Below, in pieces: positions 37,668 to 64,000 of a DNA stretch of 64,000 bases (its first letter is position 1; the number at the start of each line of letters is the position of its first letter). The stretch is from the NCBI GenBank assembly GCA_934045905.1, contig OW203764.1:24044954-24108953 (forward strand), read 5' to 3'. The stretch comes from Leuctra nigra (taxonomy: Eukaryota; Arthropoda; Insecta; Plecoptera; Leuctridae). The notes below the pieces were generated by a model, which was given only the letters and a program-made list of their open reading frames with translations, was not told the DNA's origin and made no database searches. The position numbers were made by a program, and so were the translations under genes.

Positions 37668-40600
37668 TATTATTATTATTTATTATTATTAATCCTTTAT
37701 TTGTAACGGGCAAGCCCACAAGTACAAATATAATAAAAACACATATTACATACAAAATTGCACATAGTCATAGGAATACATAAAAAGAACATAGGGTATA
37801 TCACAGAAGGAATTAAACATTTAAAGCAAGTAAAAATTATCACAGATGTCGTAAAATTAATGCTTTAAACTCAGTCAAGGAATTAAAATTAACATCTAAT
37901 TCACTACACAAGTTATAAAAATGATTAAAAGTGGCTTGCAGTCTATTTATAGTAGAAAATTTAAAAACATCTATTCTGACAGGTGACACTCTAAAAAATT
38001 GGCGAGACCTTGACAATCGTACAGGAACATACACATTTAAAAGTTGCACAAGGTCAGTATCCAATAGCCCATTCATTAATTTGTAAAGAAATACCATGTC
38101 AGCCATTTTACGCCTATCGTGTAGTGGTATCAGATTCATATTTTTACAAAACGAGTCATACTCCAAACCATTATATACTACACCAGAATGAAAACACATT
38201 GACTTGACGAAACGTCTCTGAACACTCTCTATAGACTTAATTTTAGTTACATGGTAGGGATTCCATACAGTGCTGGCGTACTCTATCTGAGGTCTGACAA
38301 TTGCAGAAAACAACAGTCTATTAGTTGATTTGCTGAAAGGAGTAAAGCAATTCCTTCCCAACAGACCAAGTAATTTCAGGGCCTTGGATTTCATAAAGTC
38401 AATGTGTAAGTTGTAAGTTAAGTCAGAAGAAATAAAAACGCCAAGGTCCTTGACTGATTTAACCCTTACAAGGGCTACAGCACCCATAGTATAATTAAAA
38501 CCAACAACATGTTTAATTTTATTTGTGAAAGTTATAACATTACACTTTGATATATTAAGCTTTAGGTTCCACTGAGAACACCAGTTCACGAGGCTGTCAA
38601 TGTCTTTTTGGAGTCGAGAACAATCTCTCACATTATTCACTGGCATATAAATCTTTAAGTCATCTGCATACAGCAAACACCTAGACTTGATTTTCCTCGG
38701 GATGTCATTCACAAAAAGGGTAAAAAATAAGGGTCCAAGTATGGACCCTTGCGGGACACCCGACGTAACTTGAACCGGCCTGGAGCTCGCAGAATCGATG
38801 ACCACTGACTGCGTCCGTCCAGAAAGGTAGTTTGTAATCAAGTCGATAAGATTCCCATCAATACCGAAGCCTCGGAGTTTGTGAACCAACAGTTGATGAT
38901 CTACCGAATCAAATGCCTTAGAAAAGTCCGTGTAGATTGCGTCTACTTGTATTTTTTCATTAATATGAAAGGCAACGTCGGTAGTATATTTCACCAAATT
39001 AGTCACAGTCGACCGGCCCTTCACGAAGCCGTGCTGTTCAACCACAATGTGCTTGGCGACATGCGAATAAATATTCTTGTGGATAATCTTCTCAAAAATT
39101 TTTGAGAACACCGATAACAGCGAAATAGGTCGATAGTTGGACACATGGAACCGACTTCCCTTTTTGAGGATCGGCGTGACGTTTGAGTGCTTCCATCGTG
39201 TAGGAAACTTTCCAGCTTGCAGCGAGTGGTTAAACAACTTTGTAAGCGGGATAGAAAGGGGCTCACGACAGTGTTTGAGTACTTTGTTTGGGATACCATC
39301 CGGTCCCGGCGATTTCCCATTTACTAAACTAGACAAGTAGAATTCTACTTCCCTCTTACTAACAATAAATGTCGAAAGAGATTCCACATTATCATAGAGT
39401 GGAGTCTCAGGCAGACAGTTTGCAGCAACTGGTGCGTGCGAACTAAGAAAGGTTGAAGCGAAGAAATTTGAGAAGAGTTGACAAGAGGTCTGAGTCTCCG
39501 TAGATTTGACGCCATCAAACTCAACCTCAACGGGAATCCGTCTTGCCCTTGACTTCCCTCGAATATATTTCCATAACAAATTCGGATTTTCCATTACCTT
39601 TGCATCAATTTTCTTTAGGTAGGCTGAATAAGTATCACTTCTAAGCGTTTTGAAGAAACTACGTTTAACTTGAAATTCAACATAATGTGATCGAAAACCT
39701 GTCCTCTTCCATTCTTTATGAGAGCGTGTCTTATCCTTAAGGGCAGCTATGAGTTCCCTATCAAACCATGTGGGATATCTAGAAGGATTGACCTTTACAT
39801 ACGGAACAGACTCTGTTAATACTCCATTTAGCAGGGAGTAAAAGATGTCACACTTCTCATCCACTTCACCTGCAGCGTCCATTTCATTCCAATTTGTATC
39901 TAAAAGATTTATTTTAAGAAGATTCAAGTCGGCTTTGTTCCAGTTAAATCTTGGCAGGGACTTAGACTTAGGCCTCTCCAACGCTGGAAGAAAAACCGTT
40001 GCCTCAAATGCCAAATGATCCGTCCGAACGATGGACTCCACTTGATCCACAACTATCTGTACATCCTGGGTGTTACAGAATAACAGGTCTAAAAAGTTAC
40101 TTACTCTAGTAGCAAAAGGAACGACTTGGTGAAAGTTCAACTCATTAACCATATCAACAAACTCAAGTGCAACACCGGCATTGGAATTTCCAATTACCAA
40201 AGGTTGCAACCCGTCCGAAGACGGCAGCCATCGGATGTCAGGCAAGTTGAGGTCTCCACAGAGCAGTACGACATCTTGCGGTCGAGAACGAGCGAGTATA
40301 CGTGATATAGAGTCCTGCAGATTGCCAACAAGAGATGAAGTGGGCAATGGTGGGAGGTATACACATCCGATGAAAAGGCTACTACTCGGCGACCGCAACA
40401 CCTCCGCCCAAACCACCTCACATTCACCGTCTTCTTCATCCACGTGACGAGACGCAAGGGCACTGCTGATGGCTATCAACACACCGCCTCCAGCGCGCTC
40501 GTTTCTGTCTCTTCTGAACACCGTATATTGACTAGAGTCAAGAACTTCACCCTCCAGTATGCTAGCACTCAACCAAGTTTCAGTCACACAGACAATATCA

Positions 40601-40690
40601 GCTTGACTATTGTCAGAAAAATTAATGTTAAAGTCACTCAGCCTTTCCGTCAATCGCGTTCCAATAGTTGTTCAAACATTATTAATTATG
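37668..40690 (-). mobile_element. Non-LTR retrotransposon (LINE, Jockey/CR1-type), 5'-truncated
   Basis: A minus-strand element consists of a long endonuclease-reverse transcriptase frame (37840-40671 open), about 150 bp of 3' UTR and a TAA/TTA-rich microsatellite-like 3' tail at 37668-37691 (AATAATAAT-type on the minus strand). The 5' boundary is approximate: the frame is closed by a TGA at 40672-40674, just where the endonuclease domain should begin, and no ORF1 is visible, so the copy is 5'-truncated as expected from incomplete target-primed reverse transcription. A microsatellite tail rather than plain poly(A) leans toward the CR1/L2 side of the Jockey-CR1 group. I could not identify a target-site duplication because both flanks are rich in ATT repeats. 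Confidence 0.9.
37840..40653 (-). CDS. LINE ORF2: endonuclease-reverse transcriptase (EEP + RT), open but lacking its N terminus
   Basis: The frame of 937 codons has no internal stop. Residues 1-230 are an exonuclease-endonuclease-phosphatase domain with ETW at 25-27, GDLN at 133-136 and TDH at 211-213 (the usual SDH has Thr for Ser). Residues ~430-700 are the reverse transcriptase: NYRPISLL at 506-513, TDFSKAFDSVDH at 575-586, GVPQGSILGP at 632-641 and the catalytic YADD at 662-665. A C-terminal region of ~240 residues follows, and no RNase H is visible. The protein would nick target DNA and copy LINE RNA in the nucleus. The listed first codon (40651-40653) is TTG; the open frame runs only six codons further upstream, and the first in-frame Met codon appears near residue 168, inside the endonuclease. 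The copy therefore probably cannot make a full enzyme, although the lack of stops shows it inserted recently. Confidence 0.92.
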   Translation of the reverse strand: MTERLSDFNINFSDNSQADIVCVTETWLSASILEGEVLDSSQYTVFRRDRNERAGGGVLIAISSALASRHVDEEDGECEVVWAEVLRSPSSSLFIGCVYLPPLPTSSLVGNLQDSISRILARSRPQDVVLLCGDLNLPDIRWLPSSDGLQPLVIGNSNAGVALEFVDMVNELNFHQVVPFATRVSNFLDLLFCNTQDVQIVVDQVESIVRTDHLAFEATVFLPALERPKSKSLPRFNWNKADLNLLKINLLDTNWNEMDAAGEVDEKCDIFYSLLNGVLTESVPYVKVNPSRYPTWFDRELIAALKDKTRSHKEWKRTGFRSHYVEFQVKRSFFKTLRSDTYSAYLKKIDAKVMENPNLLWKYIRGKSRARRIPVEVEFDGVKSTETQTSCQLFSNFFASTFLSSHAPVAANCLPETPLYDNVESLSTFIVSKREVEFYLSSLVNGKSPGPDGIPNKVLKHCREPLSIPLTKLFNHSLQAGKFPTRWKHSNVTPILKKGSRFHVSNYRPISLLSVFSKIFEKIIHKNIYSHVAKHIVVEQHGFVKGRSTVTNLVKYTTDVAFHINEKIQVDAIYTDFSKAFDSVDHQLLVHKLRGFGIDGNLIDLITNYLSGRTQSVVIDSASSRPVQVTSGVPQGSILGPLFFTLFVNDIPRKIKSRCLLYADDLKIYMPVNNVRDCSRLQKDIDSLVNWCSQWNLKLNISKCNVITFTNKIKHVVGFNYTMGAVALVRVKSVKDLGVFISSDLTYNLHIDFMKSKALKLLGLLGRNCFTPFSKSTNRLLFSAIVRPQIEYASTVWNPYHVTKIKSIESVQRRFVKSMCFHSGVVYNGLEYDSFCKNMNLIPLHDRRKMADMVFLYKLMNGLLDTDLVQLLNVYVPVRLSRSRQFFRVSPVRIDVFKFSTINRLQATFNHFYNLCSELDVNFNSLTEFKALILRHL

Positions 40691-48978: not shown

Positions 48979-49123
48979 AGAAGTGGCGGCGATGTCTGTC
49001 GGACGAAGTTGCTTCTGAAACCCCCGGTCGTCCAATGCGTCAAGATGGCCGCCACTATCAAGATCGCTCTAGCCGCCATTTGCTGTTGCTGTGTGATTGC
49101 CAAGGCGCGCGCCTTTGACACAT
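48979..49123 (+). CDS. Signal-peptide exon of a discoidin-domain gene (probable discoidin domain receptor); coding part 49045-49123
   Basis: Seen: a T-rich tract ending TGTTTCAG (48978) is followed by 66 nt of GC-richer leader, an ATG at 49045 in strong context (A at -3, G at +4), and 26 codons reading MAATIKIALAAICCCCVIAK then ARAFDT. The exon closes at 49123 on a GTGAGT donor in phase 1. The peptide has a short charged start (K6), a hydrophobic core (I7-I18) with four consecutive cysteines, and a plausible signal-peptidase site in the AKARA stretch, so the product should enter the secretory pathway. The frame stays open upstream through the acceptor, but the signal peptide and the Kozak context favour 49045 as the start. 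The terminal T joins CA of the exon at 57118 to give Ser, just before the discoidin cysteine. Inference: this is the first coding exon of a secreted or type I membrane protein. The acceptor in front of it implies a further 5' non-coding exon. A lone exon would be weak evidence; the phase match makes it convincing. Confidence 0.68.
48992..49018 (+). promoter_or_regulatory. Upstream ATG / 8-codon uORF in the 5' leader of the discoidin gene
   Basis: Within the leader of exon 48979-49123 an ATG at 48992 opens an eight-codon frame that stops at 49016-49018, 26 nt before the main start. A second upstream ATG at 49035 lies in a different frame, overlaps the main start and runs past it; its context is weak. 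Short uORFs can lower initiation at the main ATG, so this may be a translational control. The effect here is inference. It matters only if this leader is in the mature mRNA, which the splice acceptor at 48978 suggests. Confidence 0.4.
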
Positions 49124-49607
49124 GTGAGTGTTGCTTTTGTTTCGTGGAGAGTGGAAGTTTGAGTCCGTGGGATTGTTGACAGGTGACAGCTTGATTGTTT
49201 CCGTGCGAGGTGTGATATTGACACTTGACAGGGGATCGGGCGAGTGACAAGAAAATCAAACTTTTCTGAGCGAAAGAAATCGTCGAAATAATAACCATTT
49301 TATTCACCAACAACTCACAGGAAAATAAAACTTACTTTTAATGAGCTTTTATCTATAGTTTGAAATAAGCACCATTGTCCATTATAAGTCATACTTGAGT
49401 TTGGTATGAAAACTTGATATTATGAAAATTCATCTACTCTTCGACAAACTCTTTAGACAGAAAGTACATTTCTTTAGTATTCACTAGGGGGTATTCACTT
49501 CACCAAACGTCAAACTTATATGATATCTATTCAAAATATTGTTTTCCCATCTAATACAAAGTTTATCGAAAACTTTAAATTAATTTTAATGTTTTTCCAA
49601 ACTTTTT

Positions 49608-49660
49608 GGTGGAGGTGCCTTGAACCAAAGCACTCAACAATGTTAAGATGATGCGCAGCT
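49608..49660 (-). repeat. Dispersed repeat with GGCACCTCCACC core (copy 4)
   Basis: The core at 49608-49619 is preceded on the minus strand by TTGTTGAGTGCTTTGGTTCAA, closely similar to the 34195 copy. It lies in the discoidin-gene intron about 480 bp after the signal-peptide exon. Family unknown. Confidence 0.45.
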
Positions 49661-52600
49661 ACCTATAGTCAAAGGTTATATAAATTTTGCTGGGAGATGT
49701 GTCATGTTTCAAAGTTGTTTTTTTGGTGCTACCTCACATCTCACACTTTTTTAATCCAAATTTGAATTCAAAATTAACTTTTTTCGTTACTAAGTGGTAC
49801 GCTACCACATGAAGTCAGCTCCGTGCAAAACATTGCGTGCATTTGCAACGCACCCAAGGGCTATCGAGGGCGAACGCCTTTATCCCGTCCGATCGGCATC
49901 TGCCATCTTGTTTATCACATCGAAAAACACAATAAAAAAAATATCACGTGCCTACAGGTTGTAGAGAAACCCATGTTGTTGACTATTTCACCATCGGTTA
50001 AAGGTAAAGGGGGGCAAATCGATTCACTCCACTGGCAGGAGTCAAGCTCGGGGCTTAGCAAACGAAAAGATAAAACGCGCAGCTACTAAATTTACATGCA
50101 GGGCTGACTTCCATGAGAGAGTCAACAGAAATTCGGCGTAGTGCAGGGGGTTGGTTGGAGAGGCCATTTTAACCAGTTATTTGCCTGGGGGTAGGTGTTA
50201 GAAGGAATATATAACGAGGTGTGAATGCGAAATAGGCTTTATGATAATCACTACCGTTATCTTGTCAATTTGGATGATGGAGAATCGCATGTTTCTCAGC
50301 ATGGGGAAAGAGAGAAGCAGCGAGGTAGAAATTTAGCGTGTCTTTGGATGAGAAAGGATTTTATCAGATTTGTTTGAAGCGACTATTTTCGGTCCCTTTT
50401 GATATTTAGTTTCGTGAAACAAAGGGCTTCGGATCTCTAATCAGTGGGGCCATTAACAATTTAGATTCACTTTTCGGAAACTGCTTGATTAAAAGTAATC
50501 TAGGGTTAAACCTGCAAACGATTTTGTTTTCTGTAAATACGTAACGCAATAGGCATAGTACGTCTGATAAGAGAATCTTATAGTCATTGCATTTGAAAAT
50601 CTGAAAATAACACGACCGGTAATTTAATTTACTTTTTCTTTCGTCTCACTACTTTCGTTGGATTGCACGACGTGCTTGAAAATGGAATACCTATTAAGGT
50701 ACACTAAATATTTTGAGTATTTTGAAGCTCGCATGTGACATACTTGATCTTTGAACACTGCGTGAATGGTCTCCTATACCATAAATAGAACTGATAGTGA
50801 AACTTTGTGTTTTTAGTTTTCACCCCCATTTATTTCCACGCGAGTTTTCCCAACAGAAGTTTGAATAATTCGAACGTTGCACTGCATTGTTAGCTGTCGA
50901 ATGACTGCGCGCAGGGGTTGCCGGGAAAGTTTCTAATTTTCGTGGTGGTTTTAAATTTCACACGCAAATAACACCCGTGGAATTAATTATTCAAAACGTG
51001 GGGTTTTGCGAAGGGAAAGTTTGTTTTTCCACGAAGACATGAAAACGGGCGGCCAAGCGTGTCGGATAAATCTCCACTTGTAATTCTCCTTGTTTTAACA
51101 CGTGACATGGGGGGGGGGGGGGGGGATACAGCACTGCATACGGGGATAGTTTGGATTTCTATTATAATCTGGAAAATGCAAGAATTAGATAATGAAGAAA
51201 ATGCAACTGTACTGCAGCGAAATTCACTGAATATTACAGAAAAACTTTGTAATACGATTTGATAGAGAGCAAATTGTCATGCACAAATATACCTATGCGT
51301 TTGAGTTTTTGTAATAATTACCTATAAATATATTATTAAATAGAAACTACAGCATGCTGGAAGTTTTTTTTAAATTCTCAATCATTGAGAGGATATTATT
51401 TATAATGGGAATTGATAATCTTATATCAATTGGTAATTTTATGGTATCAAATTTCATCTTGGTCATAGACACGTCTAAACTGTATATTAAAAAACGTATT
51501 TGTCTGATTTGTTTACCCAATATGGCATAATATTAGCATTAATTTCCTCACCGTATTTTCTCTTTCTTCGCTGCATCTCCCACCTCTCTTCGAAAACAAG
51601 TATCTTATTTGCATATCGCGAGTTCTCGTTGGAGTTCTCCGACGAAGTCATTTGACAGGCGTCGTTACTCTCCGTCGTCGCTCACATGCCGGCGATGTGA
51701 AACTGAAAACAAGACTCCAATCACGTGACTTCTGCGTCAAACACACACGATTATCTTAATGCGAATCAATCGTGTGTTCTTTTCAGATTTCTGCCTCGAA
51801 TCAGAAACTAGGTTCTAATGAGAGGCCGAGGTTCTGAGGAGGTGTGGTGATACAAAGTGATATTGTACAGTAGAACGTGTTACACTAGCACTTGGGCAAT
51901 CAAATGATAAGTGTTATCGAATAGTTATACATTATATTTGTATGGTAAATTGGTAATTGAATCCTTTGGAATCTGTTGACATTGATAATTTAACTACTTT
52001 TTTGACTAGGTATTAAATATTTTTTTTACAAATATATATTACGTGTAAATAAAAGCTTTGTTGGAAATTTAAATGTCTATTCACACCGTAATCGAGCAAA
52101 TTGAAACAAAGATTCTACAGACATTAGATACCTACACAAAGTTTAGTTTCTGAATTTTGTACCTTCGCCGATGATAGCAGAGGAGAATGAGATGCATAAA
52201 ATTATTCGTTTTCCTAAGCTTCATGCTTCAAAATAAATGCAATATTTCGTTATTCCTGAATGAACAATCCTGTTTTTATTTTCTCTTGTATTGTGAGGAA
52301 TAAACATAGCAATTGAATTGAGAAGTGTAATTTTGTCTTGATGAACACAGATCTTCTCGCAGCTATCTAACATGCGAAGTTCGAGGGGATCGACAAGCCA
52401 TTATGCAAAACAGATCGATCAGGAGAAGGCGTTTATAGAAAAGAAAAAACATTGTCGAATCTAACAGCATGGGAGGAGGATATTTTCAATGTGGTTTGTT
52501 TCCGTAAACACTGGCTTTTCTCGACGCGATGTGGTTTTATCTCAGCTTCGGTCCGAGTTCGAAAACATCACTTTGATTCTGCTTTGAATTTATTTCACAA

Positions 52601-54486
52601 ACGAATTGGTTTACCCATTTTACCACTAAAGTTTTTTTTGTTTTCATTTAAAACGGAGGGAGGAATCCCAGTAGTGTAATATATAACACCGTGTTGGTTT
52701 TACTGCATTATCGCCGCAGAAAGTTCGTTGCAACTTTTAACATTTCATCTCATCAAAGCAAAATAATATAATTAAAATATTTCTGATATTTTAATATGAA
52801 TGAACAACAATATTATTTGAAACGGGCCAATTTTCGTTCCGTATTTAATAACCTTGTTCGGAATTTGACCTCGACGTCTAATTGGTGAAATTAAAATTCA
52901 ATTTCAAAGCTATGTCGTGCAACGTTTCGAATTAAATTAAAAATTAATTATATAATACTTCACAATTAATTATAAATACATGCTATTACTTAAATTATAG
53001 CTATTATTATTGCCCACAATTTCGGGGTTGAAAGGGAGTCCTCAGTGGTACATAAGATCCAGCTTGTGCATTGACAAACAATTCCCAAAGTAATTTAACG
53101 AACCCCTCTTCGAGTCCGATGCACCTTATGGGGTAGTTAGTGTAAGTGACCCTCTCGGGGTTATCTAAGACGACATTGAATCCCCTCTTAGCGTTTTGTC
53201 ACTAAGGGGTGAAATGCTGATACATCCTTTCAGCGAGATAGTTCGGGGTAAAAACCGACCGCCCGCCTTGAAACTCTAGGGGGCATTTAAATGTTGTCAA
53301 ATAAGGAAGCCATTTGCCAAGAGATCGTAAGTAGACAATAAAACATCGAGTTTGTGGGATAGATGCAAGTGGAATTGAATAAATGATATTGAATAAATAA
53401 TACGGACGAAACTTTGTTGCCTTCCTATTTTTCTGCACAATTGAAAACCAATTCATCAACAAGCGAAATGTATCAATGTGGAAGTTATAGTGTTTGCATT
53501 TGATGATGGAAACTTTGACCTTATCTCAAAACCTTATTTTGTAACCTCCTTCATCCACCCATGTCTTCATTTCGTAATAATTATTTTTTTGTAATTTTAG
53601 GAAGTAAAATCCTGAATGCCAGAGGAAGTGAATCTTGTTGTATAGGAAGTAAATCACATTTTTGATTATTTAATCAGGAAGATTGCATTACCAATTATAA
53701 TAAAAGCTGAAGGATCTATAGTTACTTATAATAAGAGGGTATTATTTACCTGCTAGCTCAAATTTCAAACACAAAGAGAAGAGAATTTGTTACTTATCGC
53801 AACGCTATCAGTTATATTGGCAATAAAAAGTAGTTCGCTGAACGCTCGAAACTGTTTGCCAGTCAAAATGTTTCAAATGGCTACTTTCCAAGAAAAAAAC
53901 TACAACCCTCCTCCCGACAAAAAAACCCACCAAGAGTGGAGTGACTTTTAAAACGGAAGGGTGTGTTTTCGAGACCGGGAAGATTGAAATCCTCTTTTTT
54001 TACCCTCTCTTCCCGTGGCTCCTGGAAACAAACTGTGATCGATCTTCGGAGGAAAGTGAACCAGATGGGATCTCATTCATTGTGCCCTGGTTCTCTCCGT
54101 TCCTTATACTGCACTATACAGTATATATTCGACGCTGAGTCAATGCCAAGCTGCTTTTTGCCACGATTAAGAAGCCATTCCACGACTTTCTTCCAAAGAC
54201 TTATTGACTTTGAAGATGGTATTGGCAATTTTCTTTGGAGAGAGAAAACTAAATGTTAGTTAATTTGTTATGTCTTTGGAGTTGTCTACCTTTTGATTTC
54301 AGTCTCGAGAAATGTTTGAATGAGAATAACTGGTTTTCTCAATGATGATCGGCATGACATACAAATGTGCAATGTACATGTTAATTTCAATAAACACTTT
54401 ATCTTATTACTTCATAAGAGTCATGAATCTAGAATTGGGTAATACATGCAAAATAAGTAGAATATAATAATATTGATTTAAGGTCA

Positions 54487-55091
54487 ATAAGGTATCTTAG
54501 AATCTATTGTGTCTATTGTGTAGATTTATTTCATTATTACTATAGTCATGTTCCAAAGTGGTTCGTGGATTGTAAGTTATTTTTTAATTTTCTTGTTATC
54601 ATCTCAACTGTAGAAACTTACGATACGTATTTTGTTCCTCACAGGGTTATTTTATTTATTTATTTATTTTAGTAGAAAATAAGTTGAATTATCATATTTG
54701 GGAAAATATTTTTCAAAAAGTAATGACATTACTACTTTGTAAACATTTCAAGGATATCATTTTTTTACATCTTTATTTTCTATGTTTTCATTATTTGTCA
54801 AGTCATTTTCTGTATAGATTGCATATATTAAGCAATGTTTCCTTCATTAAATCTATTATCCTAAAGTGCTATCAAAATTCTTGCCAACTCCGTTGAGCAC
54901 ATACAAGTAACTGCTTATCATGTTGACGAAGTAATAATCATAAGATAGGCCCATTTGGCGACGTTATCCCTTCTAACTACCCTATATAAACATGCCCTCG
55001 TTATCTCCATTGTTCTGTTTAATAGAAATCCCCACAGTTGCGCCCATCGGCAGGGCTGCGTTTACATAAGGTATCTTAGAATCTATTGTGT
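54487..55091. repeat. 26-bp exact direct repeat bracketing 553 bp
   Basis: ATAAGGTATCTTAGAATCTA TTGTGT occurs at 54487-54512 and again at 55066-55091. The intervening 553 bp is AT-rich and contains a short TTTA-type microsatellite (about 54647-54672). The pair could be a long target-site duplication around an insertion, or a segmental duplication remnant; no terminal structure was recognised between the copies. Confidence 0.55.
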
Positions 55092-56660
55092 AAGTGCATA
55101 CTGAGTCAGCACGCGAACTACCTTCTTATGGATTGGTTATGTAAATAAGTTTACTTTGCGTGGTGATAGGTGATCAATTCAAACTGTGATTACCTACTGA
55201 TTTTTCAAATTTCTTCGTAACAGGTGTATTAAATTCTACCATCTCTAATTTGTTGAGTTCTACTGCTTGAGTTTTCTCGACTTGAATGTTTAGGGACATG
55301 TTTTGATTCTGATATTCCACAAATGACGACCTCCACCATTGTTTATATTTTTTATCATTGAAAATACAGTGTTGAAGCGGTTTTTTGGGCATCATTGACC
55401 ACTTCTTTTGAACATTTTGTTCTAAATGTTTTGAGCGATTTTTACATGAAATTTGCTGAATTTTAAACTCAAATGAGATCAATGTTAAAAATTCGTCAAT
55501 GAGCACAAATATCAATTTATTGTCTACAATATGTAGCTCTAACATACGTACCTATGCTGAACGATACATCCACAATCTGAACTCTGGCGGTTTAGTGGTT
55601 GATCCTTCCCCTTAAATCTAAAGAAAGAAGAAAGTCTTAGCATTTTGTGTGCTCAGCTATAAAAACACACATCCTTAATTTGCTTTTTGTCATTTTTATC
55701 TCATTATCTACTGAAATGGCTACACAAGTTACAGATTTCAGTAGAAACTGTTGCGTTGTTTTTACACTCGCTGAATTCTTCCCCGTCTCCAAAAGTTAAT
55801 TTGCATACGCCTGTATATGCAGATATTGGAAAAGGAAGTACGCGAAGTTTACAGACGGAAGTTCCCGCCTCGCATCACAATACAATATATTACGTATTAT
55901 ATGACTTCGTTGTGTTTTTCCTCGTAGCTTTCGACGAACGACAAAAGAGAAGGAAACATTACAAACATCTTCGGTAACGCTTCATTTCATCTATAGGGAT
56001 TCGAAATAGCAATATCAGTGGCTGAGTTTGCTCTCAAGTAGTTCGACACGGACACGGGAAGATATATTCCTGCCTGTGTTTCGCGAAGACACAAAGCAAA
56101 TGTAGTGGGCTTTTGGGCGTATCAAAGATACACGATATGAATTCCACGAGCGGGTGATATGAAATATAGTACGCGAGAGACACAATTTCAACACAATATA
56201 TTCATCGACAATGGAATCCTCTGCCTCCGACTCGAGTTATTGGTTCAACTCGTGACATTTTTTTGTGACTTTCAACGCAGGGAATCTAACGGTTTCAGAT
56301 ATTAATTCTTGGAGTCGTGTCTTTTAATATAATTCTTTAAACTATGCCTGCAGTAAATTCTTGCATTTTAATTATAACAGGGGAAATCAATTTCAAACTG
56401 TGAAGCTTAACTCAATCCATCACATTGTTAATTGCCACTTTGAGAGCATTGCTTTAGTGACTTGCAATCAATGGACATAGGTTTTTTTTCTTACTGTTAA
56501 AAAAGATATGAATTTTCATGCACTTTTCCCTTGGAATTGTGTATGCACGCGTAACTGATAAGTATTTGAAGTACTTTGTCATAAAATGGATATAAAAATT
56601 ACATTGATATTTACAAAATAACGCAAATGTACCTTAGATTTCGAGCACATAGAGCACTGA

Positions 56661-56950
56661 TTTTTTTTTAAAATTGGGGTTTAACGTCGCACTGTTCTGC
56701 AGCGAGGCTAATGGCGACGGATGAATGATTATGATGACGATTGAGAGATGATGGTGAAGAGTAGGTAAGGATGGAAGGTGGGAAGAAGGCGGTCGTGGCC
56801 TATTAGTAGGGTACCTTCCCAGCATGTGCCTCTCGTCTGAGGGAATACCACGAAAAAAATTCAGTCAGGAAGGACAGCCACGGAAATCGAACCCGGGCCT
56901 CCGGAATACAAGTTCAGAGCGTTGGTTGTACCATAGTACCATGCTATACA
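56661..56950 (-). mobile_element. tRNA-derived SINE in the intron, about 170 bp before the discoidin exon
   Basis: Read on the minus strand, a tRNA-like head contains an A-box-like TAGCATGGTACTATGG (56931-56946) and a B box GGTTCGATTTC (56883-56893), spaced as in a tRNA gene and preceded by GGAGGCCCG. A tRNA-unrelated body follows, and then the end ACGTTAAACCCCAATTTT with an A tail (56661-56669). Such a head-body-tail order is the standard SINE structure, transcribed by RNA polymerase III and mobilised by LINE enzymes. No clear target-site duplication was identified. A CCATAG...CTATGG inverted repeat overlaps its 5' end. Confidence 0.72.
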
Positions 56951-57117
56951 ATGTCTATGGTTGTACACAAGTTGTACCTACCTCAAAATGTGGTTAGTGA
57001 CTTTCTGCGATGGGTAAGATGTAAAACCCCAACGGTATTCATTCGTGTCGTGACATTCTCGCGAGTGTTTTAATTGTTGAATCAATGGTTGAATAACGTG
57101 ATTGTGTTTGTCTGCAG

Positions 57118-57223
57118 CACGATGCATCGGGCCTCTGGGAATGGAATCGGGCGCGATTCCCAACGAAGACATCTCGGCGAGTTCTTCTTTCGACAGCAGT
57201 AACGTGGGACCAAAACATGGAAG
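57118..57223 (+). CDS. Discoidin (F5/8 type C) domain exon, N-terminal part; probable discoidin domain receptor (Ddr/DDR2-like)
   Basis: Seen: acceptor TTTGTCTGCAG ends at 57117; donor GTAAGAG starts at 57224; the exon is 106 nt. Read from 57120 it encodes RCIGPLGMESGAIPNEDISA followed by SSSFDSSNVGPKHG, ending with two bases of the next codon (AG). Known: the pattern C-x-x-P-L-G-M-E-x-G-x-I-P-x-x-x-I-x-A-S-S-S is the N-terminal signature of discoidin/F5/8C domains. The first Cys is half of the domain's closing disulfide, and the GP-x-x-x-R end resembles the region before the Gly-Ala-Trp-Cys-Pro stretch in discoidin domain receptors, which are collagen-binding receptor tyrosine kinases. Phase is compatible with the signal-peptide exon at 48979-49123 across a 7994-bp intron. 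No GAWCP-like continuation was seen up to 64000, so the remaining exons lie outside. Alternatives: another discoidin-domain protein (hemocytin, neuropilin-like, coagulation-factor-like). Caspr/neurexin IV fits less well. The family call is strong; the exact gene is moderate. Confidence 0.72.
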
Positions 57224-59129
57224 GTAAGAGAACATTTTTAAATAGCTCTCATCTGCACGGAGCAAAACTTTTTCAAAGAATATTTGAGTAGTAATCCCGG
57301 TTAGAAAAGTAGGAAGTTTTGAGGGTATTGAATTGAAAAGTTACTCACAGGATGCAATGAAGCAAACTTATAAAATAATGTCTTGATTTTGATTGTATTT
57401 TGCGTCAAAGAAATTCTAGTTTGCAAACATGATCCATATGTTTGAACGCGTTACTTTTTTGTGTAATATAGTTTGAAATGAAACTTCCATGTTTACCTCC
57501 GCCCAAGCGTGTGGGTGTCAATATTACAATCTGCTATATTGGACCTTTCTTCAGCAATATTATTGATTCTGAGAGCGCCTCTGACATCCGGTGTCGAGAA
57601 TACAAACTGATTGATTACTAATTGAATCATCAAGAACCTGGCATATTCGAGGTGTTTTTGAAGGCCAAAAGTACGTTGACTTACTGCTTTTACATACTTC
57701 TATGGACATAACAAATTCTTCAATAAATTTACGAACATGTGCAATTTGCAGTCAGAAGTCAACGAACGATTTTACAACTTTCATTGTTGCCACTATGAAA
57801 ATTACATATCAGTTTTAATTTTAAATTTTTCGTAGGTATAAAAACTGAATTAAAGTTTTCTAAAATAATATCGATACATTGTTGGTTTAAATTAATAAAA
57901 TACAACATTTAAGTTGGTTCCTGAACGGTTTGACCTGTAACACTTTATATCATTAAATCATCTTTGGAGCTCCTCTCTCAATAATACTCCCTCATCACGA
58001 GACGAAACTAAATCCGCAGTAATCAAACCTGGGCTTAACGTCCATCATATCGACGCCTTCAACCCCTTGCCTATGTTTTACTCGACGCCCTCCTGTGCAC
58101 GTCGACGCCCGACCACAATGCGAGGAAACTTTTAGGAGGAGGGTGGCGATGTTTCTTGCCCTACGTCTTGCCCACAAGAAGCGGACTACTCAACTACCCC
58201 TAGCACTGCGAGGTGCCGGGACGACTGTGGGGGTGGCGAGAATTATAGTTGCATGGAGGGATGGAGAGAATCTATTTATTGACCTTCTTTTCCCCTCAGC
58301 ATATTTCTTTGCCTGTTTTTCCTCGAGGCATAGGTTTTGAGATATCTAAGACGATGATGTCCAGTTTTAGTTAACAGTGAACGTTTTATCCACTTCTACA
58401 TCAAGTATATATTTTTTGAAATATATGAAAGTTCACAATCGAAGTATCTGTAACGTCTATACCTGATTTTACATGCAATTTCTTTTTTAATTCCTGTCTA
58501 TGAAATTAATAATAGAAAATATAATTATTAAACCTAAAAGTGTCCTCATTTAAATTTAATTGGCTACATTTTCACTGTAAACAATCTGTAACTTGCTAAA
58601 TAATATGAAGGAAATATCGTTGTATGTTTATTTTTGTGAGCAGAAATATATTAGTAAAGTAACTTTTTTGATTATAGTACATAAAAAGAAACAGTTAGTA
58701 ACTTGCTAAGAAAATGTTTGTCCATTTACCAAAAGAAAATATAGGCAACGGAATGTCCTATTTATATTATTTAGTAAAGTAATAACAGTGTTTACATAGT
58801 TTTTGCATACTATTGTTGTGGTTTAATCAATTCAAATTACTTATTTTAAATTTTTGCTCATGAAAGTATAGGCTCTGTAAACACATTTAAATTGTGACTG
58901 TTCCTTCCCTACCCCCTGACTCAATGGCTTCCCTCAAGTTGACTGCACAGGGCGTATGGATCCACCAAGAAGTTCGGATCTCTATAGAAACAGAATAAAT
59001 ATGAAAGATCTCGCAGCGCAGCGGCCATCCATCGTCTTTATGGAAAATTAATAGGATTTATTGCGCTGGTTGCGATGTGGTCCGGTACGAGGCACCATTA
59101 GGACTCCGTCGAGGATACAATTTCCATGC

Positions 59130-59151
59130 GGGGGGGGGGGGGGGGGGGGGG
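59130..59151. repeat. 22-base G homopolymer
   Basis: The longest of about a dozen G or C runs of 10 or more in the window. Runs this long can form quadruplex DNA and are prone to sequencing length error. Confidence 0.9.
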
Positions 59152-60583
59152 CGCCCTGAAGTGAATACCGCAGACAAAGCATTCAAGAGGGGTTCTCGTT
59201 TTACAACTTCTGATGTGAGTGTATTTTCAATGAACGTAGATCAGCTGCAATTTTCATATTTCAATATTAATTTCGTTTAAAAATCTCAGAATTATTGCTA
59301 AGGGGAAGATTTATTTTGTTTAAAATCAAAATATTTGTATTGTATAATATTATGTAATAAATACATAATTTTCATAATTTTTCTTGAACTCCATAAGCTT
59401 CCTTCAGTAATTCTTTTAAACTTTAACGTACACACAGCTATATTCCTCATATTGTACACCCCTAAGCAAGGCTCTATACACGACAGACGAAATATTACAC
59501 CTTCCACTTGCCATATAAAGGCACTCTGCTCCTCATGAGGAGTGCAAATGGAAACTCACAATAATACCACCGCAAACTAAAATATGAAATAGCTCTTGCA
59601 TAACCATACGAACGGGAGGGGAGGGTTGGATTTATTTCATGGTTGAAATCCGCTGATGATAAACTTTGCCCTGGTGTGAGTTGTTTTGAAGATTAGGACA
59701 TGTTTCGCCCCCTGCAACCCTCCGGCTCTTTACTGGAGGTGATTTCGGTTGTGTACTTAGCAATGTCACCTCCCCCCCTCCCCCGCGCCCTCTGAAGGGA
59801 TGGCGATAAACTCGCGAGATAAGAAGCGCATGATTATATGTGAACGGGGGTGTTTATTGTGAGGTGTAGCTTCGAGATGTGACGTTATCGGTATTTATCT
59901 CTCATCGAAATAGGGACTCTTGATTTGGTTGTACAGTATAGTGCGTTTTCACGATACCTGTATGTAAAACCAAAAATTGTCCCATTGTCAAGATATTTTT
60001 TGTTGTTAGAAGATCTACAAAGGCAGCACTAAATTCATATTAAATCTTGAAAGAAATAAAATCAGAATATCGAAAACAATATCGATGTTTTCTTTATCAT
60101 ACACAAAAAATAAAATAAACAAAATAAAAATTGTATGGCACTTGTAAGCAGTAAATCAAGAATTTTTAAAACCATTTTGGTCGTTTTTCGCACGAAATTC
60201 GAAATACAGCAAGAGAAGAATACCCAAGATAAGTTGATGGACCCACCCCTTTCCCGACATTTTGATAGAATATTCAATAAAATAAATGTTAGCAAGGAAA
60301 TCAGAATTATTTCATTCAAGATGACAGTTGTCAAATAGGTACAACTTTAAAATGTCATACGATAATTTTTGAAATCAATAAGTCTGCTATTTGTATCACC
60401 CTCAGTAACCGTCGCCTTTACAAATATTCCCCATTAAAAATGAACAGCTTCTGATTGCTTTGCTTCGGTTTGAGAATAACATGACGCCACCACCATGATA
60501 TGTTTGTAACTAGGTGAATTATTGACTGCAGCGTCAATGTTTAGTTTATATCAGCATTAATTAGCATAGTTTCACGCTCGGGG

Positions 60584-60608
60584 GTGTGTGTGTGTGTGTG
60601 TGTGTGTG
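60584..60608. repeat. (GT)n microsatellite
   Basis: Uninterrupted GT dinucleotides following a G-rich stretch. Confidence 0.95.
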
Positions 60609-62898
60609 CAGGGGAGCAGATAAGGCGCTAGGTGTTCAATCCTTGACGTTTACAATAACACTGCGACGGAGACGGCTGAGATTTATATCTCCTTGACACA
60701 GAGAAGCGAATTATAGAGCGGAGTGTGAAATACAGGAGGGGTTGTTCTTGAGATGGGGATGCTGCATACGAAATCAGTGTATACCTTTAATAATACGCAC
60801 CAAACTAAGAGTTGTTGGATTTTATCAACCCTATCCGAGTTGGATCAGAACAGTGGTGAGAATTTGAAAGTTGTTGATGACCCAAGGGACTTCTTCAAAC
60901 ACCTCAAGAAATTGTTTTAAAAAATTATTAATTTTAATGGTTCAGAATTCAGATAGTAGAAATAACTGAAACAATTATCTTGTTAATGTGATCGTTTTCA
61001 AGTGTAATTTGTGTGTAATTTTCCATAAAATGTTTTAGAGGAAATAGTTTGAATATCAATTATTTCACGTTCTTAAAAAATCAGAACAAATTCTTAAAAC
61101 ATGCGTAATACAAATTTTAGTATCTGGTCTGAGGGAAAACACAATAAAATCGTATCGAACGGTATCGAATTGAATGGTAAACTACACTTATAATAAAGCT
61201 CTTAGTTTTATTTTTATTTTTTTTCTGAAACTACTGCTCCTCTAATTGAAGCAATCTATTTCTTGATCTTGTGGTTAGTTTTTTGTTTACCACAGATCAG
61301 TACTTTCACACACACACGATTTGCACGATTTTGTTGGAAAAGTTGACTATAAAACAGTTGACTAGTAACACTCGCTTCGCTCTACTGCGACAGTGACGCG
61401 TGAGTTAAGAGATGTGATTTCCCTCAACGTGTCACAAATATGGAATTATAGCGATCGCGATATCTGCGCGGATGCGATCTTGAGAGCATATATATTATTC
61501 TTGTTCCACTCCGATGGACCGTGGCTCCGAGATCGACTTTCCAGACGCGAGATGCCGAGAGAGAATCCGAGGAAATGGATCTCTGAATTTTGGCAAGAGA
61601 ATCGTGGATATGCAATTCTCTTTTCGTATCACTGGGCATGCGTAATGCTTAGTTCACACCCCGTGCTGTCAGCTTTATGAAAATTTAAAACCTCTTTTCC
61701 GGGAGCGTCGTGACACGCGTGCCGTTTTCCCGACGCTCGCTTTTAGAGCGTTTCGTATCAAAAAAGTAGAAAGTAAAAATATCACATTTTCTCTGAGTTA
61801 AGCCCGGCTGTGTGTCAGGGGAGAAGGGAAAGACAACATCCCCGAGTGATGCATGGATTTATCAAATATTCCACACAAGGAAATGGGGATCCTGACGTGA
61901 CACGGCTCAAGCTCAAAGTTTCGTTACGGGAATCGCAGAGTTTCAAGCTGAAAAGGGATCATTAAAAACCTGGAGCTGGGAAGAGGAATATATATTATTT
62001 TCTATGTCGTGTCTCCGATCTCTTGTGTCAGTGATAAACTGGTGAGTAATTGTCACCAATGTTACAATTATTTGTGATTACATTTAGTCCGATAATTGTT
62101 GAGGGATTTGAAAATAACGATGATATGGAAATAACAATGTGGGGTACAAGACGCTTCAAATTAAATTATTTATAAGGCGCGTTCGATTATCTCCGCAGAA
62201 ATATACGCGTTTTCATTACTTTCAGGGTGATGTCCACCAATTAAATGTAGTGAGTTTTGTCATGGGTTTGGCGCAGACATTCAGAAAGTACGATGAGCAA
62301 TCACAACAATCTGTCATTTTCACGATTCTGTACCGTTACTTTATTAATACTGCCGATTCTGTTTCTTGTTTTGATTTTTTAATAATATTTTGAAATAGTT
62401 CTCTGCATGCTCCGGAACTAAAGATCCTGCACAGCATCTGGATTCGTTTTGTAAATCTGTTTGTACCAATTATACGGTCTGTCACAAGTGCCATTATGGC
62501 GGCATCCACTGAACAACCCTTTTCAATCTATTTTAAATAACACTTGGCTTCAAGAATGACTGAATTGTAAATACACGTCCCAGCCCACATGATTTTCTCG
62601 TTCCTTCTGAGTCTGAGTTGTAGATGTACTGTCATCTGACAAAAAAGTGAGAAGGAATATATAAAAAGTGGATATCTCATCTTCATAATGATAGCAGAAA
62701 AATCTTCTGAGCCAAAGTAAAAATAATATGATGTGACGGAGACAGATTCTACCCATCTTCAAAACCTGTACGTCGCTAAGATCATCATAAGACATTTGTA
62801 GGAATCTTTTGTGGACATTTGAGAGGAGAAGATTGGAGCAGCAAATTGGTTAGATGAAGATATCATAAAGATATATTACTTTTACCTATTTATTTTTA

Positions 62899-62928
62899 AG
62901 AACTTCTCTTACAAGAACTTCTCTTACA
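62899..62928. repeat. 15-bp tandem duplication
   Basis: AAGAACTTCTCTTAC is repeated exactly twice in tandem; a recent slippage or duplication product. Confidence 0.7.
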
Positions 62929-64000
62929 TTGGGATCTATTTTCTTATCCATTTTCTTATATCAGAAGTCAGTCCGCAAAACACAAGTTTTTCCACTTTAT
63001 TTGTGTTTATGTGAAGTAGCTTCACCATAGATGAACCCGATGAACCTTTAGTGAACTAGGTAGTACTAAATAAATTTACCAATTTTACAAAGCAAAGGTA
63101 TAAAGCCAAAGTTGTTTTATACTAATAAAATTGTGTATGTAGAGGCAACAAAGTTTGCTGTTTTTATTTTAGTAGTACATTTTTGTGAAAAAGGTTGTGG
63201 GTTCTCTAAATTCGACTTAAAATTAGAAACTATGTTTGCACTTTTCACAACGAACACAGAAAATAGCAGAGGGAAACAATTCTCATTTCTCGCACAATCA
63301 ACGAGTATGTAAAAATAGAATAAGCTTAGACACATCTCGAGCAAAGAGCTTCGAACGAAAACGTAACACCTCAATTGCACCAAAGTACTCAAGAACTTTG
63401 AAAGTCTGTCGCAATTTAGGATAATCATTCATGAGTGAACAAACATTCTATTCGGTTCAGTGAACAGGAGTGGAACGCAACGCATGCGTCTGAGATCTCT
63501 CGACAAGTTTACGCCGTTCTCTTTACTTTACCACCAACGCCCACCGTGTAATATATTCCTAATTCTTCTCGGCTTCTTCTTTATTGAACCTGACAGCCGC
63601 ACTCCGCTCGAGAGAAGAGACTGACATGTTTGTATCATCCTGCAGGCTGCATCACGGAAAGAAAGAACACCTCTAAGACAGACACTTTATACGCCTCTTT
63701 CCAAAGATTCGTATTTGGATGTGTGTTGAAAAAAATTCAGCTGCAGGTATCTTTATAAATAATGTGTATGCAATTCAGTTGCCAAATTAAACACTAAACA
63801 CATCTATTTGGTATTCATCTCATTTGAGATGAAATGGCTTCTGATTTTTGCCAAAACAGCTCATTTCCTCTGCGTGCAATTTTGGTTTGGCTGACGATCT
63901 AATAATTCCACTGATTTTGATTTTGATTTTACTATGAGCACAAGATTCCGTGACCGTATATTTTTTTTGAGTAAAAGCACATAAAAGGGTTTTACATTAG

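Follow-up and report, generated by a model that had tools for sequence, protein, structure and literature searches.

Two small exons that very probably open a discoidin domain receptor gene in the stonefly Leuctra nigra, and tandem arrays on its splice borders

The 64,000-nucleotide stretch of Leuctra nigra DNA considered here (C3:24044954-24108953, + strand; the window, meaning the whole of this stretch) contains two short exons which, on the evidence of sequence reading and homology, are very likely the first coding exons of an intact discoidin domain receptor (DDR) gene of this stonefly with 15 coding exons. The window was read together with the next 200 kb in one extended coordinate system (264 kb), in which the gene covers approximately 76 kb and reaches 61 kb beyond the window. 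Its downstream part was pointed to by a discoidin match 11 kb beyond the window on the same strand, found in a profile search of the genome. Tiny 5′ exons lying 8 and 18 kb apart were recognisable from raw sequence and were then confirmed by the exons downstream. As a gene, the Leuctra receptor is an ordinary stonefly addition to a well-known family, and the tandem arrays found on splice borders are the more interesting observation.

Gene structure and domain content

The exon borders, obtained by sequence reading and homology, are listed below in extended coordinates (a slash marks a splice border). Joined in phase, the 15 exons encode a protein of 926 residues with no stop, and all 14 introns are of the GT-AG type.

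48979..49044, +, exon 1, 5′ untranslated portion, preceded by the consensus-like acceptor tgtttcag/AGAAG, with two upstream ATGs
48992..49018, +, upstream open reading frame 1, MSVGRSCF, 8 codons and stop, within exon 1
49035..49118, +, upstream open reading frame 2, 27 codons and stop, overlapping, in a different frame, the start codon of the receptor
49045..49123, +, exon 1, coding portion, from the ATG at 49045: signal-peptide-like N terminus MAATIKIALAAICCCCVIAKARAFDT and the first base of Ser27
49124..57117, +, intron 1, 7,994 bases, GTGAGT...CTGCAG, phase 1
57118..57223, +, exon 2, where the discoidin (F5/8 type C) domain begins: CIGPLGMESGAIPNEDISASSSFDSSNVGPKHG and two bases of Arg62
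57224..64000, +, intron 2, the portion inside the window (17,942 bases in all, ending at 75165, outside the window)
75166-75397, +, exon 3, finishing Arg62 in phase and encoding GAWCP
91619-91766, +, exon 4
92698-92874, +, exon 5
94554-94687, +, exon 6
102464-102671, +, exon 7
111041-111589, +, exon 8, the transmembrane exon, holding YTAIIIAVLTALLLTVILYVIIS
115429-115595, +, exon 9, with its acceptor AG at 115428
117161-117283, +, exon 10
119175-119284, +, exon 11
121557-121763, +, exon 12
122502-122594, +, exon 13
124088-124229, +, exon 14
124746-125051, +, exon 15
92698-102671, +, DDR-specific DS-like domain (Pfam)
117161-125051, +, tyrosine-kinase domain (Pfam)

For exon 9, a second candidate acceptor, six bases from the AG at 115428, ended in TG and gave a protein of 928 residues; it was rejected.

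Reading of the sequence places the exon 1 donor at 49123 (...GACACA T/gtgagt) and the borders of exon 2 at 57118 (ctgcag/CACGATGC) and 57223 (GGAAG/gtaaga). Intron 1 interrupts the codon of Ser27 (T+CA), and the two exons, once joined, form the open frame MAATIKIALAAICCCCVIAKARAFDTSRCIGPLGMESGAIPNEDISASSSFDSSNVGPKHG(R). An earlier note, made from the letters of the window, had proposed these coordinates, splice sites and phases, with a serine restored across the intron just ahead of a discoidin N terminus, and had taken the window for the 5′ end of a probable DDR locus; rereading gave the same borders and phases, and the joined protein bears out the family assignment. A swallowtail butterfly protein (P0002) already matches the region of exon 2 taken by itself (tblastn E 3e-6, 264 kb searched), and the 139 residues obtained by joining exons 1–3 find human DDR2 as the top match in the PDB for the discoidin part (E 3e-26). 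The note had further suggested that exons for GAWCP, a transmembrane helix and a kinase be sought past position 64000, where exon 3, exon 8 (its membrane stretch read by eye) and exons 10–15, respectively, now occupy these roles on the same strand and in phase.

The earlier note also held the start of the gene to be fixed, which is correct for the start codon (ATG 49045) and not for the start of transcription. The sequence at the 5′ border of exon 1 is acceptor-like and, therefore, transcription probably starts further upstream, in one or more non-coding exons that would precede it. The two upstream open reading frames of exon 1 represent a possible control of translation.

Three Pfam domains are found in the 926-residue protein, namely PF00754 (F5/8 type C, 2.9e-18), PF21114 (DDR1-2_DS-like, 8.8e-73, residues 190-361 against positions 1-177 of the 177-position profile) and PF07714 (tyrosine kinase, 1.3e-73, starting at residue 629). 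The leader IALAAICCCCVIAKARA is hydrophobic, as judged by eye, and homologues have an N-terminal extension at the same place. A single membrane-spanning stretch (YTAIIIAVLTALLLTVILYVIIS), followed by the basic RYRQRK, lies approximately 200 residues ahead of the Pfam kinase start (again by eye); a juxtamembrane region with tyrosines follows, and the kinase carries the VAVK lysine, HRDLATRN and DFG. When the kinase part is compared with the PDB, human DDR2 is the best match (2e-89), and the top 11 of the best 60 matches are DDR2, DDR1 or a DDR2/DDR1 chimera.

The homologue search returned at least 809 matches, 120 of which were listed. Among these 120, the closest are an unnamed protein (70% identity), another unnamed one (66%) and a DDR2-like protein of the damselfly Hetaerina americana (66%); many carry the name of an insect discoidin domain receptor, and the remainder include unnamed and hypothetical proteins as well as one called Ror.

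Kinase, collagen pocket and competing readings

An alignment of 49 sequences was made from the reconstructed protein and 48 homologues picked by hand among the 120 listed. The catalytic residues are present throughout, or nearly so: K667, N779 and D792 in 49/49, and D774 in 48/49 with one gap. Other positions weigh against a simple transfer of the collagen-receptor kinase description to the Leuctra protein. The alpha-C glutamate is replaced by Asp684 (Asp in 47/49), and in the nucleotide loop the leading glycine by Ser635 (G in 20, A in 15 and S in 14 of the 49, Leuctra included). In the discoidin domain, Trp52, Thr56 and Asp69 of DDR2 correspond to Phe51, Val56 and Gly69, which are in turn invariant or nearly so in the aligned set (Phe51 in 48/49 with one Tyr; Val56 and Gly69 in 49/49).

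Given Asp684 and Ser635, the strength of the kinase is not transferable from the vertebrate DDRs, and the receptor might be catalytically weak, or a pseudokinase acting as a scaffold. In addition to the two replacements, the start of the activation loop differs (DFGTNNELY against DFGMSRNLY in human DDR2). However, VAVK, HRDLATRN and DFG are all retained, and an alpha-C Asp common to 47/49 of the aligned sequences is a feature of the lineage rather than a sign of decay, so that a weak or dead kinase is unlikely, albeit less so than the other alternatives weighed below. We read the kinase as working but lineage-modified, a reading that is unproven.

As for the collagen pocket, a report on DDR2 names Trp52, Thr56, Asp69, Arg105, Glu113 and Cys73-Cys177 among its residues, and describes the W52A variant as devoid of collagen binding (PMC2807035). 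Cys73, Arg105 and Glu113 are kept in the Leuctra receptor, and the position taken for Cys177 is Cys in 49/49, its equivalence coming from the motif and not from a numbered alignment. Because three residues of the DDR2 pocket differ, the attribution of collagen binding comes from the family only; of the collagen-receptor kinase announced by the earlier note, the receptor tyrosine kinase holds, and the collagen half stays at the level of family resemblance. Since the W52A variant of DDR2 loses collagen binding and Trp52 is replaced here, insect DDRs may recognise another collagen motif. The altered pocket is common to the aligned insect DDRs, which makes the choice of ligand testable.

Going by what is known of the family, the leader would direct the receptor to the cell surface, where the discoidin domain would bind triple-helical collagen or another matrix ligand, basement-membrane collagens being the candidates in insects. 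Binding of the ligand would activate the kinase, which would then signal to adhesion and to the wrapping of glia and similar cells, as is reported for Drosophila Ddr. Loss of the latter is described as impairing axon ensheathment, with a genetic interaction with the collagen Multiplexin (PMC10112903).

With respect to the gene model, it may be asked whether the true first coding exon lies elsewhere, 48979-49123 being a chance leader. Signal peptides offer little sequence for comparison, the intron is 8 kb long and two upstream ATGs precede the start codon in exon 1. Nevertheless, the phase and the donor fit, and the end of exon 1 (..AFDT/S) matches the family pattern ..A.DTSQC. The junction between exons 1 and 2, alone among the junctions in offering little sequence itself, is directly supported because Asp25, in exon 1, and the junction Ser27 are conserved in the family (41/49 and 39/49 of the aligned sequences, respectively). 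A chance leader is accordingly very improbable, and 48979-49123 is kept as the first coding exon.

Slightly less probable still is that the gene is a pseudogene, or that the tandem arrays at exons 7, 11 and 12 disrupt its splicing. Seventeen copies of the exon 7 acceptor stand before the real one, and reading beyond the exonic part of the array copies soon meets a TAA. On the other hand, all borders are intact, and arrays of this kind in amphioxus are reported not to disturb regular splicing (PMC3087553; PMC3902484). The pseudogene reading was rejected because the 926-residue frame is open throughout.

Finally, an origin of exon 2 in another discoidin protein (neuropilin-like or coagulation-factor-like), for which the leader joined to exon 2 gave some ground by scoring highest with neuropilin-2 (7e-7, against just 4e-4 for DDR2), has a negligible chance and was ruled out once exon 3 and the later exons were joined, since DDR2 then moves ahead (3e-26 versus 2.4e-19 for neuropilin-2) and the downstream exons provide PF21114, which is specific to DDRs, together with a DDR kinase.

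Neighbouring receptor loci and tandem arrays at splice borders

In the genome profile search, PF21114 gave 11 matches in four groups, all of them on contig C3:

23.60 Mb, -, locus A, read in part only
23.78-23.79 Mb, -, locus B, read in part only
gene under study, +, locus C
24.32 Mb, -, locus D

The four DDR loci, with their discoidin and kinase matches, occupy C3:23588915-24325364, i.e. they fall within 0.74 Mb, three on the - and one on the + strand. Gene D (L027:92-238 and L027:3399-3494, both -) has DHA at the DFG position together with HRDLSAR, and is likely a pseudokinase, judging from these motifs. Gene B (L051:2235-2372) has DLG at the same position and HRDLATR. The Drosophila paralogue CG34380 is stated in another paper to lack the kinase domain on which the alignment there was based (PMC3863949). 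By title, no paper on clustered insect DDR duplicates was present among the matches listed.

Tandem arrays were sought with Tandem Repeats Finder in the window and the following 200 kb, merged, and retained at a period of at least 50. Eleven merged arrays were obtained in the contiguous 264 kb, four of which contain a known exon border versus 0.54 expected by random placement (p 0.0016), and for gene C alone three of four arrays lie on borders (p 0.009); these tests are post hoc, the arrays having been noticed first, they use overlapping data, and any exons that belong to unknown genes there are uncounted. The arrays that involve exons, in gene C and elsewhere, are the following.

100291-102556 (L012), acceptor of exon 7, 126 bp x 18
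118798-119235 (L014), acceptor of exon 11, 130 bp x 3.4, only 2 copies keeping an unaltered acceptor core
121712-122166 (L014), donor of exon 12, 90 bp x 4.9
L027:167-1012, exon of gene D, 106 bp x 8, containing the border
L030:2317-2873, gene B, 73 bp x 7.6, overlapping an exon match
L051:2366-2514, gene B, 51 bp x 2.9, 82% match, overlapping an exon match
L004:2423-3168, overlapping an exon match
L006:486-1618, overlapping an exon match
L044:710-1112, overlapping an exon match

The array at exon 7 repeats an identical 21 bases across the acceptor 18 times, at a spacing of exactly 126 bp. For the arrays of gene B, L004, L006 and L044, the border was read by eye or not located. L004 and L006 lie 5 kb apart on C11 and are perhaps parts of one gene.

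Splice-border arrays are thus present in three DDR genes of L. nigra and probably in further genes. Two results count against a general tendency. When the short loci were pooled with the stretches of genes C and D, 7 of 15 arrays overlapped one of 47 known exons, with a null mean of 4.7 (p 0.12); this test, which left out the exon match L004:2344-2481 covered by the L004 array, lacks significance because the majority of the loci are short stretches with an exon at their centre. In 13 kinase-exon loci chosen blind to repeats, an array overlaps the exon match in a single case (L044), three have arrays elsewhere and nine have none. On balance, the chances seem to us even that splice borders of L. 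nigra are hot spots of tandem-repeat birth, where minisatellites whose unit joins a splice site (3′ or 5′) to part of the exon have arisen repeatedly, and partly recently, in the manner of the amphioxus ‘mirages’, a name given to tandem repeats on exon−intron borders (PMC3087553; PMC3902484). In the literature searched, from which most subscription journals are absent, no report of splice-border tandem arrays in insects was found by title or by the start of the abstract, those of amphioxus being the only ones met. If the proposal is correct, the stonefly would provide a second, independent animal lineage with a mirage-type process, as well as a natural system in which to test how introns are gained through tandem duplication and how the spliceosome chooses among up to 18 identical acceptors.

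Other features and comparison with known systems

Elsewhere in the window, 37840-40671 (-) holds a retrotransposon frame of the long interspersed nuclear element (LINE) type, with 943 codons without a stop, an endonuclease and a reverse transcriptase (RVT_1, 3.1e-36); it is the only Pfam match among the 10 open reading frames of the window that were scanned. Contig C144 (17,593 bases) encodes a COX1 that is 100% identical, over 99% of the query, to the COX1 of Leuctra nigra, to that of L. fusca and to a cluster with the label Neoptera. In the genome, copies or fragments of COX1 outside contig C144 occur at C13:51651552-51652892 and at eleven other places, one of them spanning 436/436 profile positions, and probably represent mitochondrial DNA inserted into nuclear chromosomes. 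At C1:19366964-19370357, seven consecutive matches all cover one segment of the myosin head profile (approximately 376-436); we take these to be, probably, mutually exclusive exons of a muscle myosin gene (cf. Drosophila Mhc).

Among insect proteins, the Leuctra receptor shares domain order and similar length with those of Hetaerina americana (P0123, 66% identity over 98% of the protein) and Homalodisca vitripennis (P0126, 62% identity over 97%). The positions of the collagen pocket are replaced alike in the insect discoidin domain-containing receptor 2-like proteins, with otherwise ordinary divergence, and a feature of the Leuctra sequence itself is Asn796, unique among the 49 aligned, 37 of which have Asp there. 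The likeness to human DDR2 and DDR1 extends to the discoidin, DS-like and kinase domains by Pfam and to Cys73, Arg105, Glu113, the lysine, HRD and DFG, whereas the differences concern Trp52/Thr56/Asp69 (Phe/Val/Gly), the alpha-C Glu (Asp) and the start of the activation loop.

With regard to the arrays, the amphioxus ‘mirages’ are alike in having units of approximately 50–150 bp composed of part of an exon, the splice site and part of an intron, at either border. They differ in that Leuctra is an insect, and in that its arrays attain as many as 18 copies, with a length that is exactly constant.

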